Assembly: GCA_021734245.1 (NCBI GenBank)
Contig: JAIPJH010000026.1
Coordinates: 1-33,444, forward strand
Direction of reading: 5' to 3'
Source of the DNA: Candidatus Cloacimonadota bacterium
Lineage (GTDB): Bacteria; Cloacimonadota; Cloacimonadia; Cloacimonadales; TCS61
DNA: 33,444 bases
The notes beneath the pieces were generated by a model. It saw only the letters and a list, made by a program, of their open reading frames with translations, had not been told where the DNA came from and did no database searches. A program made the position numbers and the translations under genes. This document shows positions 3,184-8,625 of the stretch, one piece after another; position 1 is the first letter of the stretch; every line of letters begins with the position of its first letter.

Positions 3184-5889
3184 TTAGAATGATAATGACA
3201 ATCCAGCATTGAAGGTTCTGGGCAGACCAAAGAAGACTTCTGCAGAACTTCCACTATGTGGATAATGTGGAGGTGAACCCCAATCAGCCCAGGCATTGTA
3301 AGCACTGTTATCCACAGCTTCCAGAACATAAACATCATCCAATAAATTGAAGATATGTCCATAAGCTTCTACGTCAAATCCTTTCACGATCGTTGGGAGT
3401 TTATAAGATATATGTAAATCCATCACACCGTAAGCAGGAATCTGCCAGCTTTCTTCATCATCATTTGGATCTTGACGACTGAACGGATCCCAGGCAGCAT
3501 AGAAATCATCAAAATATTTATAATTTACATTGATATCAAGACCTGGTACAGGATAAAGTGTTGTTCCAAAGGAAAGCTGAGTTTGAGGAGCATCACCTAC
3601 TTTCAGATCTTTTACGTAGATATTAAGTGTATCTGTGAAACCAGCATCATCTTCATAAACTACATTTTCCAGATCGTTCAAGTATGTCCAATCACCTTTG
3701 GAAAGTGAAAGATCAAATTTTGCCAGTGAAATTGGTTGATATTCAACTTCCATTTCGGCGCCGATGTGTCTGGAATCGATTCCGCTTACAAAAATTTTGA
3801 TTTCATCATTGGGAGTATCTACAGAAAAGCTTTTGGATTGATCGATCCAGTTTGTATAATATAAACCTGTATTAATATTCAGCATTTCATCTAAACCAAC
3901 AAAATTGAATCCTGTTTCCATAGACAAGAATTTTTCATTTTCAGGATCATCAATCAACTCACCTGTCCAGTCATTGATCACTTCATCAAAGATAGGGCAT
4001 TTGTTGATGTAGCCGGCATTTCCATAAACACCAAAGCTATTGCTGATTCTATAACTGGCACCACCTTTGGTTTGATATCCCATAATCCAATCTGTTTCTG
4101 TATACAATTCATCTCCACCTTCCATTACGAAGTGGTCGGTATATTGATACTGAACAGAAGATAAACCTACCATTAAGGAAGCTTTCAGTTTATCTTTTAC
4201 GTATTCACCTTGGGCGTAACCACCAAACCAGCCAACCTTATTGGTATTGTAATAATCAATTTTGTCACCAAGTTCTTTTTCATATTCATCAGCAGTGTCA
4301 AAATCATTGCCATCGAAGAAGAAATAATCTCCACCCAGAAGATCACGAACTTCTCTGAAGTGGTCAATTTCCGCCGTTCTCCAATCAACGCCAACAGAAC
4401 TTTTCAAATTTTCGTTTATCTGATAATAAGCTCTGGAAATTGCACCAATTGTCCATTGCTGGTTTACGCTGTTACGCAGGATACCTGCTGAACCAGTGCT
4501 TAAAGTATCATTTTCAGCAATTGTGGAATTCCAATCAACAACCCTGGATGGTCCTGAATAATCCCAGTTTACACTACCGAAAGTACCGGTACCACCACCT
4601 TTACCACCAGAATAATAAATAATTGAATAAACATCTAATTTTTCATTCAATTTTGTAAACCAGTTAAGATTGATCTGTGGTTTATGATAATAGTTTTCAC
4701 GTTCGTTGAGGAAATTTGGTGAAAATCTGTCATGAAGATCACCATTCCACCATTGTTTTCCACTATAATTAGGATCTACAGTGTTCCAATTTTCATTGTA
4801 GAACATACCTGCGTCTGATTCTGGGAAATCAGAAAAATAATCAGCGAGTTCACTATCGGGAACGCCAGAATTATCTTCAGCATAATCATGGTTGTAGGCA
4901 GCCATATTTTGTTTATACAAGTTTTGGCCGTGTCTTTGAGGAGCGCCGGCAGCGTAGAATTCAAGACGGTTATTGTCATTTATTTTGTAGCTTGTAGCAA
5001 GATAGTATGACCAGGCATCAGTCCAGGTTGCATCGATAACGCCGTCTCCAGTTTTGCGGGTAACGTTAAAACTAAAAGCGTATTTATCGTTAACTAAACC
5101 TGAATTTGCAATCAAAGTTTTCTTTTGGAAACCACCGGAGCCATATTCCTGCTTAAATCTAACACCTTTATCCATTTGAGTTGGATCGGTGATCATATTC
5201 ATAGTACCACCAATAGAAGGAACAGCAAGATTGATAGCACTCAAACCTCTCTGAACCTGGATCGATGAAGTAGCATCGCCAAGGCCATCCCAGTTTGACC
5301 AGTAAACCCAGCCATTTTCCATATCGTTAACAGGAACACCATTGATCATAACAGCAACATTTGCCTGATCGAAACCTCTAATGTTAATACGGGCATCACC
5401 AGCTCCGCCACCTTGTCCTGTAGAATACACACTTGGTGTAGTAGTAAGAACAAGAGGAATATCACGAGAACCTAATGTAGAAGTAATTTCTTCTTTATCC
5501 ACATCTGTGTAGGCAATTGGTGTATCTGATTCAGCTCTATCAGATAATACACTGATTCCTTCGATATTAATCGATTCCATTTCCATTTCGAATTTAACAA
5601 TTGTGGTTTCATCCACGTTCACTTCAATCTCTTTGGATTGTTTTCTATAACCCATCATACTTACAGTTATCGTGTGAGTTCCAACTGGTACATTTTTCAA
5701 AGTAAATTGTCCATTCTGTTTGGTGTAAGTACCGGTTTTTGAATCTCCCAGATAAACAGCAACATCGGCTAGCGGATTACCGTTTTCTGCGATAGTTACT
5801 TGTCCTGCAATTGTACCAGTTTGAGCAAAAGCAGCAATTGGTACAAGAAGCAGAATTGACAAAACAGCTAACACAAGCAATCTTTTCAT
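3184..5889 (-). CDS. TonB-dependent outer-membrane receptor with carboxypeptidase-regulatory-like N-domain
   Basis: About 901 residues from the preferred ATG at 5889. An ATG two codons earlier (5895) abuts the Shine-Dalgarno with no spacing, while AAGGAGG sits 6 bases before 5889. A signal peptide ending ...PIAAFAQ leads into a CarboxypepD_reg-like beta domain (about 25-105: GTIAGQVT, then DVAVYLGD, then VPVGTHTITVSMMGYR). A plug domain follows (about 110-240: NIRGFDQANVAVMINGVPVND, cut here to its core). The rest is a 22-strand-type barrel rich in aromatic/Asp/Asn turns, ending in a terminal Phe (LSLSF) as outer-membrane proteins do. It imports a ligand using TonB/ExbBD energy; the substrate cannot be read from sequence. 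No SusD-like lipoprotein lies next to it, so it is not an obvious glycan locus. It is monocistronic, with its own terminator. Confidence 0.9.
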   Translation of the reverse strand: MKRLLVLAVLSILLLVPIAAFAQTGTIAGQVTIAENGNPLADVAVYLGDSKTGTYTKQNGQFTLKNVPVGTHTITVSMMGYRKQSKEIEVNVDETTIVKFEMEMESINIEGISVLSDRAESDTPIAYTDVDKEEITSTLGSRDIPLVLTTTPSVYSTGQGGGAGDARINIRGFDQANVAVMINGVPVNDMENGWVYWSNWDGLGDATSSIQVQRGLSAINLAVPSIGGTMNMITDPTQMDKGVRFKQEYGSGGFQKKTLIANSGLVNDKYAFSFNVTRKTGDGVIDATWTDAWSYYLATSYKINDNNRLEFYAAGAPQRHGQNLYKQNMAAYNHDYAEDNSGVPDSELADYFSDFPESDAGMFYNENWNTVDPNYSGKQWWNGDLHDRFSPNFLNERENYYHKPQINLNWFTKLNEKLDVYSIIYYSGGKGGGTGTFGSVNWDYSGPSRVVDWNSTIAENDTLSTGSAGILRNSVNQQWTIGAISRAYYQINENLKSSVGVDWRTAEIDHFREVRDLLGGDYFFFDGNDFDTADEYEKELGDKIDYYNTNKVGWFGGYAQGEYVKDKLKASLMVGLSSVQYQYTDHFVMEGGDELYTETDWIMGYQTKGGASYRISNSFGVYGNAGYINKCPIFDEVINDWTGELIDDPENEKFLSMETGFNFVGLDEMLNINTGLYYTNWIDQSKSFSVDTPNDEIKIFVSGIDSRHIGAEMEVEYQPISLAKFDLSLSKGDWTYLNDLENVVYEDDAGFTDTLNIYVKDLKVGDAPQTQLSFGTTLYPVPGLDINVNYKYFDDFYAAWDPFSRQDPNDDEESWQIPAYGVMDLHISYKLPTIVKGFDVEAYGHIFNLLDDVYVLEAVDNSAYNAWADWGSPPHYPHSGSSAEVFFGLPRTFNAGLSLSF

Positions 5890-5895
5890 ACACAT

Positions 5896-6008: not shown

Positions 6009-6343
6009 GCATCCCCCGAAAATATTCCTTTTCTGGAATCAATAAAAAAAACACTACAATTTCATTTTTTTCAAGCCCATGAATTAATTCAGGGGAAAAA
6101 CAAACAAAGCCTTTTATAGTAACCATTTCAATGGTTTATTATTTGTGCAAACGGTTGAAACCGTTGTCCGACATATTTCTCGCATCAATATTCCCACGAA
6201 TGACCCGGTGAAATTGAATTGATTTCACAGGTTAAAAATTCGTGGTCTTTACTGGATATGTTTTTGACAGGAAAAATAGCTATAATTTCATTTATTACAA
6301 TAAATTAGGGTTACACTCTCCAAATTTTTCGGGGGGGGGATGC
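6009..6343. repeat. Palindrome-rich element bounded by inverted repeats, MITE-like
   Basis: The left boundary GCATCCCCCGAAAA (6009-6022) is the inverse of the right boundary TTTTC-G9-ATGC (6326-6343), apart from the length of the G/C run. Between them lies a chain of hairpins: CCC-A-TGAATTAATTCA-GGGG (6076-6095, core perfect), AACCATTTCAATGGTT (6121-6136), AACGGTTGAAACCGTT (6150-6165), and a two-part stem CCACGAAT/ATTCGTGG (6194-6201, 6238-6245) enclosing GTGAAAT/ATTTCAC. No protein-coding signal was found; a 61-codon minus-strand frame here runs through the palindromes and has no ribosome site. It is probably a non-autonomous repeat element or decayed repeat cluster. A target-site duplication was not evident. 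Confidence 0.5.
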
Positions 6344-6416: not shown

Positions 6417-7220
6417 TTATTTAAGTAAAGCTTCTTTTTCCAGAAGGAATCTTTCGTTCTCGCTCAGATCTCTTTTATACTGGTAGATTGTCTTGATCCA
6501 TTCACCGTAAACTGGATTTGGCAAAACAATAAATTTTCTCCCAAATTCAGTTTTTAAACTATCGGCAAGAAATGCTCTTTGTTCTATAGTTTTTTGTCGG
6601 AAGACATCAGAAAAATCTATCAAATTATCACCAATAAATAGTGCAATATGGAAATTCTCTGAAACCATATTTCTCCTTGGTTGTTTGCTGGAAGTTGTTG
6701 TCCTCATGAAAAGGTGTTCTTTATCTGCAAATGGTAAATTCAATTCCTTAAGATTTTTCAGCGTTCCATCAAAGTGTTTATCTTCATCTCTATTCGTAAT
6801 ATAGAAAATTTCTACATCATTCTTATTGGCATAATTCAAGAATTCCAATGCTCCCGGTACAAGTCTGGAATTATTGTTTTCGTTCCACTCTGCAAAATGT
6901 TTGGAATAACTTTTATTCTCCAAAATCGATAAAATTTCAAACTCCATATTATCCAAAACCGTTTCATCCAGATCGACAACAACCGCCAAAGGTTTGGGAA
7001 ATGTTTTCTGCAGAGCAACTGACAATCTGAAAGTAGCCAGATTATAAGCCTGGTAAGCCAGAGCTTTATATTCTGCAGAGGTTTTCTGCCAGAGAACGGG
7101 ATATAAAATTTCCTGATTATAAAATTTAATCGTTTCTGCTTTTTTTGTTTGGATCGCATCCTGTGAAAATAAACAAAATACAACCAGTAAAATCAATGAT
7201 ATCAGATATAATCTATTCAT
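6417..7220 (-). CDS. Exported acid phosphatase / 5'-nucleotidase, e(P4) (HAD class B-C) family
   Basis: 267 residues from the ATG at 7220. The frame extends upstream to 7271, but AGGAGG sits 6 bases before 7220 and the reading overlaps the kinase stop, so the longer form is rejected. An N-terminal hydrophobic signal (MNRLYLISLILLVVFCLFS) exports it; the Cys inside lacks a good lipobox. HAD motifs are complete: motif I VVDLDETVLDN (Asp83 nucleophile, Asp85), motif II YITNRDE (Thr142), motif IV FIGDNLIDFSD (Asp198, Asp202). Family members dephosphorylate nucleotides such as NMN or 5'-nucleotides in the periplasm so that the nucleoside can be taken up. Start and kinase stop overlap by 8 bases, so the pair is translationally coupled. 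Confidence 0.87.
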   Translation of the reverse strand: MNRLYLISLILLVVFCLFSQDAIQTKKAETIKFYNQEILYPVLWQKTSAEYKALAYQAYNLATFRLSVALQKTFPKPLAVVVDLDETVLDNMEFEILSILENKSYSKHFAEWNENNNSRLVPGALEFLNYANKNDVEIFYITNRDEDKHFDGTLKNLKELNLPFADKEHLFMRTTTSSKQPRRNMVSENFHIALFIGDNLIDFSDVFRQKTIEQRAFLADSLKTEFGRKFIVLPNPVYGEWIKTIYQYKRDLSENERFLLEKEALLK

Positions 7221-8625
7221 TATAATCCTCCTGAAAAATTCTGTGAATTCCATCAAAAATATAGCCGACATGAATGCGGTTGGTAAAATCCAGTTTTTCT
7301 ACATCGATCTCCATAACTTTGCCTTTATGAAATCCAAATCTTGTTACATCAGTGGAATAAGTTCGATAATATTTATTCAAGGATTCTATCTCATTTTTGT
7401 TCCAACCACCGGCGATTTCCATTTCTCTGCCCCGCTGCTGAATTCTACTCCAGGCCAGATCACTTCTACCGTTCAATAAGATCAGAAGATCGGCGGGAGG
7501 AATTTCGTTGCAAACCGCTTTGAATCTTGCTGTAAGATCATCCAGCTGGTTTGCCGTAAGATAACCATCTTCATGAAATTGGTAGCAGAAAACCAGCAGG
7601 TCTTCCGGCAGAGAGCGATCCATTACAAAGCTTTCCTGCTTTGCCTTTCCTTTTAGTTGGAGTTCTTTTCGCATTTTCAAAAAGTGGAGCTGAAGATCGT
7701 AACAAAAAGTTTGTTTATCTGCCAGGAATTTTTCCAGAAGCGGATTTTTCTCCGGATTTTCGTACAAACCATTTATCTTAAGACTTCTCTGCATAATTGC
7801 AGCCAGAGTTGATTTTCCCAGCCCCACATTTCCGGCAACCGCAATAAGTTTAGGATTTTCCTGGAGATATTTTTCCAATTTACTTTCAGCATCGATGGCT
7901 TTCAAAGTGGCTGCCGTTTCCGGCAATGTTACCCATTTACTGATGCCGGGAGTCGTTACGCGCAAGTTCAGATTTTTTATCTCTTCCACTATTTTCTGGA
8001 TCGTATTTTTTAAATATTTTGGCAGAGGTGTATCTATATTGGCATCGATCACCAAAACCGGGCATTTTACATGACGATTGATAAAAAGATCGTAGAGTTC
8101 ATTTAGTTGTGACAGATATTTGGGAGGAATGGATGCTTCACTTTCTCTACCGCGTTCTTTAATTCGTGCCAGAAGGGTTTCCACATCCGCTTTCAAATAA
8201 ACCATCAAATCAGGTTCTGGAATTTTGGAAGTCATCAGATTGTAATTGCGTTGATAAGCCAGGAATTCTTCTTCGGTCATATTTCCCAATATTTTCTGAG
8301 CCATACCAAAAATATGATAATCTTCGGGAAGTGTACGATCTTCCAGAATAATGCCTTTGCAACCTTCTATCTGACGTTGCCTATCCAAGCGACCATTAAA
8401 AAATTCAATTTGTGCCATGAAAGCATTTCCCGCCGGATCTTCATAAAATGCATCCAGCACTTTGGGATTGAATTTTTCCTGAAATGCATAAACTTTTTCT
8501 TCTCCCGTTTTATCGGGTATCGTAGATAAAAGCAGATCACAAAGCGGTGTTTGCGAGGCAGCTTCCACTATAGTTGATTTTCCCACTCCGATATTTCCGA
8601 CAATTCCAATTCTGAGATGTTCCAT
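7213..8625 (-). CDS. Tandem deoxynucleoside kinase fusion (two dNK domains)
   Basis: 470 residues made of two complete kinase domains of the deoxynucleoside kinase family, each about 210-220 residues. Domain 1 (about 1-220) has P-loop GNIGVGKST (10-18), the EDR signature (95-97) and lid ARIKERGRE (about 153-161). Domain 2 (about 258-470) has P-loop GNVGLGKST (265-273), MDR (335-337) and lid SRIQQRGRE. Each is expected to phosphorylate deoxynucleosides with ATP in the cytoplasm. The halves differ clearly, so they may have different substrates or one may be regulatory. The usual family form is a single-domain homo- or heterodimer. The gene is coupled to the exported phosphatase, which suggests salvage of external deoxynucleotides. 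The start is supported by AAAGGAAG upstream. Confidence 0.88.
   Translation of the reverse strand: MEHLRIGIVGNIGVGKSTIVEAASQTPLCDLLLSTIPDKTGEEKVYAFQEKFNPKVLDAFYEDPAGNAFMAQIEFFNGRLDRQRQIEGCKGIILEDRTLPEDYHIFGMAQKILGNMTEEEFLAYQRNYNLMTSKIPEPDLMVYLKADVETLLARIKERGRESEASIPPKYLSQLNELYDLFINRHVKCPVLVIDANIDTPLPKYLKNTIQKIVEEIKNLNLRVTTPGISKWVTLPETAATLKAIDAESKLEKYLQENPKLIAVAGNVGLGKSTLAAIMQRSLKINGLYENPEKNPLLEKFLADKQTFCYDLQLHFLKMRKELQLKGKAKQESFVMDRSLPEDLLVFCYQFHEDGYLTANQLDDLTARFKAVCNEIPPADLLILLNGRSDLAWSRIQQRGREMEIAGGWNKNEIESLNKYYRTYSTDVTRFGFHKGKVMEIDVEKLDFTNRIHVGYIFDGIHRIFQEDYNE

Follow-up and report, generated by a model that had tools for sequence, protein, structure and literature searches.

Deoxynucleoside kinases (dNKs) are known from pairs as well as from single genes. 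Lactobacillus possesses a heterodimeric dAK/dGK, in Bacillus subtilis (L079) the genes dgk and dck are adjacent with an overlap of 4 bases, and Priestia also carries adjacent overlapping dNK genes. Motifs with known roles in dNKs are the P-loop, the catalytic glutamate, DR[S/T] and the LID arginines, and an Arg/Asp pair divides the purine/deoxycytidine enzymes from the dNKs accepting thymidine. The TK1 family has a fold that differs from the non-TK1 dNK fold. In the e(P4) family of phosphatases, the catalytic aspartates reside in the motifs DxDET and GDNxxDF.

A 2024 study (PMC11662666) describes dNKs as mostly dimers and the Giardia deoxyadenosine kinase as a homotetramer whose affinity is raised by higher-order assembly; according to the same study, an affinity gain via extra subunits or domains had before not been demonstrated for non-TK1-like dNKs. 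For the Haemophilus e(P4) nucleotidase Hel, PMC10694654 states that it most likely degrades deoxynucleotides, too.

In this study, we analyzed a stretch of 33,444 bases from Candidatus Cloacimonadota (hereafter the window), in which one gene encodes two dNK domains and is followed by the gene of a phosphatase. The two halves were characterized, the arrangement was followed in relatives, and possible functions of the locus were weighed.

Materials and Methods

The window comprises all bases of its contig; the source genome has 3.11 Mb and is 98.5% complete. Relatives were scanned with window-specific peptides, which yielded at least 45 named loci (a lower bound). For the archaeal and Myxococcota loci, 32 regions were analyzed, which were picked partly for showing two matches, with many weaker matches excluded. 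The annotated regions in the trees are hand-picked matches; L123, L127, L139, L140, L145 and several duplicates were omitted from the tree, as were L078, L083, L084, L087 and some near-identical rows. Genomes, loci and families are denoted by G, L and f, with f1 as the window's own family.

Results

One frame with two dNK domains

Two matches to the dNK family PF01712 were obtained in the kinase gene (Table 1), one at 7972-8610 (129.5 bits, E 1.9e-37) and one at 7279-7845 (99.3 bits, E 3.6e-28), both above the Pfam cut-off of 27. They lie in one frame with no stop between them (ORF 7213-8625), and both P-loops are intact (GNIGVGKST in D1, GNVGLGKST in D2), in agreement with the original prediction of one polypeptide holding two complete dNK domains. 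An AlphaFold2 model of the kinase reached a mean pLDDT of 81.7; with a pTM of 0.53, the mutual placement of D1 and D2 is not fixed by it. In the predicted models both halves adopt the dNK fold (Table 1), and D2 also matched M. mycoides dAK (2jat; Z 21.5, rmsd 2.2, 191 residues). Judged from the sequence, both domains are real and apparently active.

Table 1. Position and properties of the features of the kinase locus in the window
Feature	Coordinates	Strand	Properties
TonB-dependent receptor-like protein	3184..5895	-	downstream neighbor in several relatives
e(P4)-family 5'-nucleotidase/acid phosphatase	6417..7220	-	TIGR01533; signal-peptide-like N-terminus; no lipobox
Fused double deoxynucleoside kinase, 470 aa	7213..8625	-	single frame; ATG 8625; AAAGGAAG upstream
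First half D1, residues 1-222	7960..8625	-	best fold match of predicted model: human dCK (Z 24.8, rmsd 1.6, 201 residues)
D1 motifs			P-loop G10-T18, E50, Q72, R79, D96-R97, D102, LID R154/R158/R160
Linker, residues 223-249	7879..7959	-	invariant at 9 of 27 positions (41 fused proteins)
Second half D2, residues 250-470	7216..7878	-	best fold match of predicted model: Giardia dAK (8puu; Z 23.2, rmsd 2.9, 205 residues)
D2 motifs			P-loop G265-T273, E289, Q312, R319, D336-R337, D342, LID R394/R398/R400, GGW 406-408

Conservation of the active sites

Among 41 aligned fused proteins, 72 of 222 positions in D1 and 65 of 196 in D2 are invariant. P-loop, Gln, Arg, DR, Asp and the LID arginines are retained in both halves of all 41 with few exceptions, namely Thr for Ser in the D2 P-loop (two proteins), Val for Thr98 in D1 (one protein) and Thr for Ser after DR in D2 (one protein). 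The catalytic E50 of D1 is present in 41 of 41. The catalytic glutamate of D2 is put into a gap by this alignment, which is an artefact, and other comparisons lead to E289; in alignment A1, E50 and E289 are invariant in all 39 rows. An invariant signature of D2 is the GGW after the LID. The distance from the P-loop lysine to E50 is 34 residues in D1, which carries about 16 extra residues there, and the corresponding spacing is 18 in D2 and in the mycoplasma dAK (counted by eye).

With respect to base recognition, R79/D102 of D1 and R319/D342 of D2 align with the Arg/Asp pair of the mycoplasma and Giardia dAKs; the fruit-fly dNK has Met/Ala at these positions in the alignments. The titles of PDB entries of R104M/D133A dCK with L-dT, where the same pair is altered, agree with the rule given above. 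Both active sites are thus predicted to be of the purine/deoxycytidine type (dA, dG, dC).

Spread of the fusion

The two-domain architecture proved to be spread over 41 of 124 genomes of the Cloacimonadota, where a single open frame held both dNK matches, and over 5 of 371 sampled genomes of the archaeal phylum of the Woesearchaeota (G127, G516, G564, G574, G695). Because it recurs in 41 genomes of the phylum, the fusion is no assembly accident. The Cloacimonadota genomes belong to f1 (19), f2 (21) and f4 (1), and the frames are 461-542 aa long in 39 cases and shorter in two (G075, G098). Four more genomes hold kinase fragments only (G002, G052, G073, G099), and f13 genomes carry single-domain dNKs at separate sites instead of the fusion. 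In the relatives' loci, the kinase is 61-85% identical to that of the window, and in all 15 loci, wherever measured, it is better conserved than QueD, EngB, DXS and MnmE.

Not labelled Cloacimonadota are L048 and L049, whose neighbors differ from those of the window; with them, Myxococcota have at least two fusion loci among the matches listed. In L045, a MAG labelled Armatimonadetes, the Cloacimonadota gene order surrounds the kinase, so that it is probably mislabelled or mis-binned. A "fusion" on a Stutzerimonas plasmid (H19) was rejected, as its two ORFs are separate and follow a Bacillus-like gene order. For L078 (NZ_CP078512.1, labelled Stutzerimonas stutzeri plasmid), the order gyrA, dgk, dck, serS, pdxT read by eye suggests a Bacillus-type chromosome piece and not a Stutzerimonas plasmid. 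Two scans of viral contigs revealed no viral carriers of kinase relatives; phage records match the kinase, and the three inspected are single-domain genes. Another dNK fusion, of 439 aa, was observed within the window's family in L087 (G085:C132:1500-4800, minus strand), where the part behind a dNK (117 bits) weakly matches DUF4062 and nucleoside deoxyribosyltransferases. A fusion-type gene in L125 (G642:C20:5000-8200) appears to be disrupted by a frame change inside D1.

Archaeal fusions and unfused gene pairs

Two of the 45 named loci, L050 and L063, come from MAGs labelled Woesearchaeota. On the contigs of three of the five archaeal two-domain genomes, the fusion has archaeal genes in its vicinity. 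These are aCPSF1 (837 bits against a cut-off of 580) and a proteasome beta match (198.6, under the cut-off of 224) in G574, PRK09602 (556 bits, cut-off 387), a YchF-related GTPase of archaeal character, in G695, and a partial Hel308-like helicase, below its cut-off, in G564. The four newly found archaeal fusions share 39-59% identity with the window's kinase and retain the key catalytic residues with small P-loop changes; the archaeal fusions are more diverse than the Cloacimonadota ones. In the Woesearchaeota MAG locus L063, a single D1-like dNK gene (4188-4913) ends 87 bases before the fused gene, resulting in three related kinase domains in a row.

The comparison of the halves with the dAK, dGK and dCK clades, as envisaged originally, gave a divided answer. 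In a tree of 86 rows with a weak backbone, D1 and D2 each form one clade versus the other (100/99 each), but neither lies within a characterised dAK, dGK or dCK clade. The D2 clade includes unfused genes of G672 and G687 and has unfused genes of G514, G694 and G774 as its sisters (92/95). All five are the second gene of an overlapping dNK pair, with overlaps of 11, 14, 4, 14 and 14 bases (five of five measured, from the most plausible starts), and by eye, L119, L121 and L122 show a stretch ahead of the P-loop that is similar to the linker between D1 and D2. These archaeal pairs related to D2 support the reading of the fusion as a heterodimer joined in one chain, and they strengthen the originally noted likeness to the two-gene dAK/dGK(dCK) pairs. 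Solitary unfused D1-type genes were found nested within D1 (G595, G857) and in a sister clade (G621, G663). That D2 never stands alone is an impression drawn from a sample picked partly for two matches. For the genes that come first in the archaeal pairs, the tree gives a position outside D1, but a clade shared with D1 is not rejected (p-AU 0.451), and they are not clearly orthologous to D1. A recent internal duplication, with D1 and D2 as one clade, was rejected with 58 rows (p-AU 0.0058) but no longer after addition of the archaeal relatives (86 rows, p-AU 0.442).

Phosphatase gene and its linkage to the kinase

From its first ATG, the phosphatase ORF covers 6417-7271 on the minus strand. 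A later ATG at 7220 is preceded by the strong Shine-Dalgarno sequence CAGGAGG and opens the signal-peptide-like stretch; from this start, the overlap with the kinase gene, ending with its stop at 7213, is exactly 8 bases, as had been proposed. The protein passes the NCBIfam e(P4) model TIGR01533 with 258.3 bits (cut-off 216.05), and its translation holds VVDLDETVLD and GDNLIDF. Together with its N-terminus, the TIGR01533 match bears out an e(P4)-type phosphatase with predicted export. No lipobox was found in the window phosphatase or in 10 of 10 neighbors, which have hydrophobic signal-peptide-like N-termini instead.

Genes for e(P4) are present in 40 of the 124 genomes of the phylum, 27 of those in f1. 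Among the 19 two-domain f1 genomes, 14 possess e(P4), and in 12 of these 14 it follows directly downstream on the same strand (with a gap of about 530 bases in G100). Kinase and e(P4) are on different contigs in G064, where the kinase is at a contig end, and in G068. The two-domain f1 genomes lacking e(P4) are G065, G075, G076, G094 and G096, some having the kinase at the end of a contig, and the 22 two-domain genomes belonging to f2 or f4 all lack e(P4). The gene order of the window recurs in 18 of the at least 45 named loci; the phosphatase follows the kinase in 10 of the 18, is missing in L033 and L043, where other genes take its position, and is not seen in six that are cut off at contig ends. 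No phosphatase was found in the flanks of the remaining 27 of 45 loci.

The phosphatase is 43-52% identical to that of the window in the relatives' loci, as compared to the 61-85% of the kinase. These values and the linkage counts identify the kinase as the conserved element and the phosphatase as a local companion. Since the 22 fusion genomes outside f1 and the near relative L033 (kinase 84%) lack e(P4), the kinase does not depend on the phosphatase. The originally noted link between the two genes is supported for the own family, where they are mostly adjacent, but not for the fusion genomes elsewhere.

Neighboring genes and pathway context

In the 521-base gap between the genes of the phosphatase and the TonB receptor-like protein, a cytosine run of the minus strand is present at 6331-6340; scans for promoters and terminators remained at chance level. 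The TonB receptor-like protein may possibly belong to the same uptake route. In many own-family relatives, the gene directly before the kinase (L034:3633-4442 and orthologues) encodes a membrane protein whose cysteines resemble those of a zinc ribbon. As an upstream partner it was rejected, having no Pfam match and being absent in the window and L033.

Thymidine is served by a separate TK1, which is present in the own genome (199 bits) and in 110 of the 124 genomes of the phylum (E 0.001), in a few by weak matches only. The own genome also encodes NrdD and a second ribonucleotide reductase, so that salvage is not obligatory; it saves energy and does not replace synthesis. A Bmp-type binding protein of a nucleoside importer (298 bits) in the own genome could serve nucleoside import. 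PnuC was not found in the own genome, nor was a CNT-type nucleoside transporter, and salvage of NAD/NR by kinase and phosphatase is less likely because of the missing PnuC. An independent arrangement was observed on a Prevotella nigrescens plasmid (L081:32-2786), where an unrelated, exported phosphodiesterase-family gene is located 14 bases before two dNK genes that are 38 bases apart.

Discussion

We consider it likely that the 470-aa protein pairs two non-TK1-like dNKs of the purine/deoxycytidine type in one chain for salvage, with a local link to a phosphatase, and that it probably works as a built-in pair recapturing DNA breakdown products. Each half is predicted to phosphorylate a deoxynucleoside at its 5'-hydroxyl with a nucleotide as donor, because the dNK fold and every catalytic motif are retained. 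Most likely, the fusion represents a built-in pseudo-heterodimer in place of a heterodimer, with D1 presumably pairing with D2, since dimers prevail among dNKs and the unfused genes closest to D2 come second in overlapping pairs. In one chain, the two kinases would be kept at a fixed ratio with two sites, and by analogy to the tandem TK1 of trypanosomes the fusion may perhaps raise affinity. In the own family, the exported e(P4)-type phosphatase could produce deoxynucleosides outside the inner membrane, which the kinase would then trap. Kinase activity, substrates and a pathway common to kinase and phosphatase are what we infer here.

The adjacency of both genes could also be due to chance, with a phosphatase scavenging phosphate or NAD(P) and a kinase acting alone; this is possible, though we regard it as rather unlikely. 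The gene order shared by most own-family two-domain genomes with both genes, the 8-base overlap and the lack of PnuC in the own genome argue against it, and the Prevotella plasmid offers an unrelated exported enzyme encoded before two dNK genes. It would agree with e(P4) genes lacking a full two-domain kinase frame in 13 of 40 own-family genomes (G073 with a kinase fragment), with L095, where a TonB receptor-like gene comes after e(P4) and no kinase was found in the stretch, with the kinases lacking e(P4) in L033 and outside the own family, and with the action of Haemophilus e(P4) on NADP, NMN and nucleotides given in PMC10694654.

As a wider proposal, which we put forward only tentatively, D1-D2 would be an inter-domain family of Cloacimonadota and nanosized archaea and an obligate pair, in which D2 forms a new partner-dependent dNK subfamily and an archaeal gene pair became a single chain that reached bacteria. 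In that case, a gain of affinity or of a second specificity through covalent pairing would become known for a non-TK1 dNK for the first time.

It appears improbable that one half is silent, only binding nucleotide or stabilising a catalytic other half as in the tandem thymidine kinase of T. brucei. P-loop, Glu, Gln, Arg, DR, Asp and the LID Arg are retained in D2 as in D1, unlike in Giardia TK, whose second half is without many important residues according to PMC9190010. In the same paper, one half of the tandem TK is inactive or degenerate in T. brucei and in Giardia, and in the loci sampled D2-type genes occur only beside a partner and D1-type genes alone (L131, L132, L137, L138), as would fit a silent half. 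Very unlikely is a new substrate of the pair in place of dA/dG/dC, for instance a deoxynucleoside that is modified or damaged, or some other molecule resembling a nucleoside: both halves sit on long stems off the characterised dNKs, followed by strong conservation, and D2 has invariant signatures not shared by D1, for example the GGW behind its LID, but the base-recognition Gln, Arg and Asp of both halves match dCK/dGK/dAK enzymes and the stems are shortened by archaeal sequences.

Compared with described systems, the preferred reading of a salvage pair in one chain has several counterparts. The phosphatase belongs to the same family (TIGR01533) as e(P4)/Hel of Haemophilus influenzae, an exported nucleotidase (PMC10694654), and differs by the missing lipobox and by a genome without PnuC. 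The tandem TK1s of T. brucei and Giardia also have two consecutive kinase domains per chain and act in deoxynucleoside salvage; following PMC9190010, one of their halves is inactive or lacks key residues, which the fused dNK retains in both. The Giardia deoxyadenosine kinase (PDB 8puu) is a non-TK1-like dNK and, among solved structures, one of the nearest matches to D2 in sequence and fold, with one domain per chain versus two in the window's kinase. With dgk-dck of B. subtilis, the locus shares two dNK units, there made as two polypeptides from adjacent genes, and the purine/deoxycytidine-type site residues of the dck product, but the halves do not group with these genes in the tree; both dgk-dck and the Lactobacillus dAK/dGK consist of two chains, whereas the window's kinase is a single one.

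No fused non-TK1 dNK was found in the open literature searched, a scope outside which most subscription journals lie. As a natural one-chain pair with two intact sites and unfused archaeal counterparts, the window's kinase makes the question of affinity by added domains directly testable, and it could be a ready two-specificity enzyme for nucleotide production. The fused non-TK1 dNK adds a new variant to what is already known, namely dNKs encoded singly or as two-gene pairs, and the tandem TK1s.
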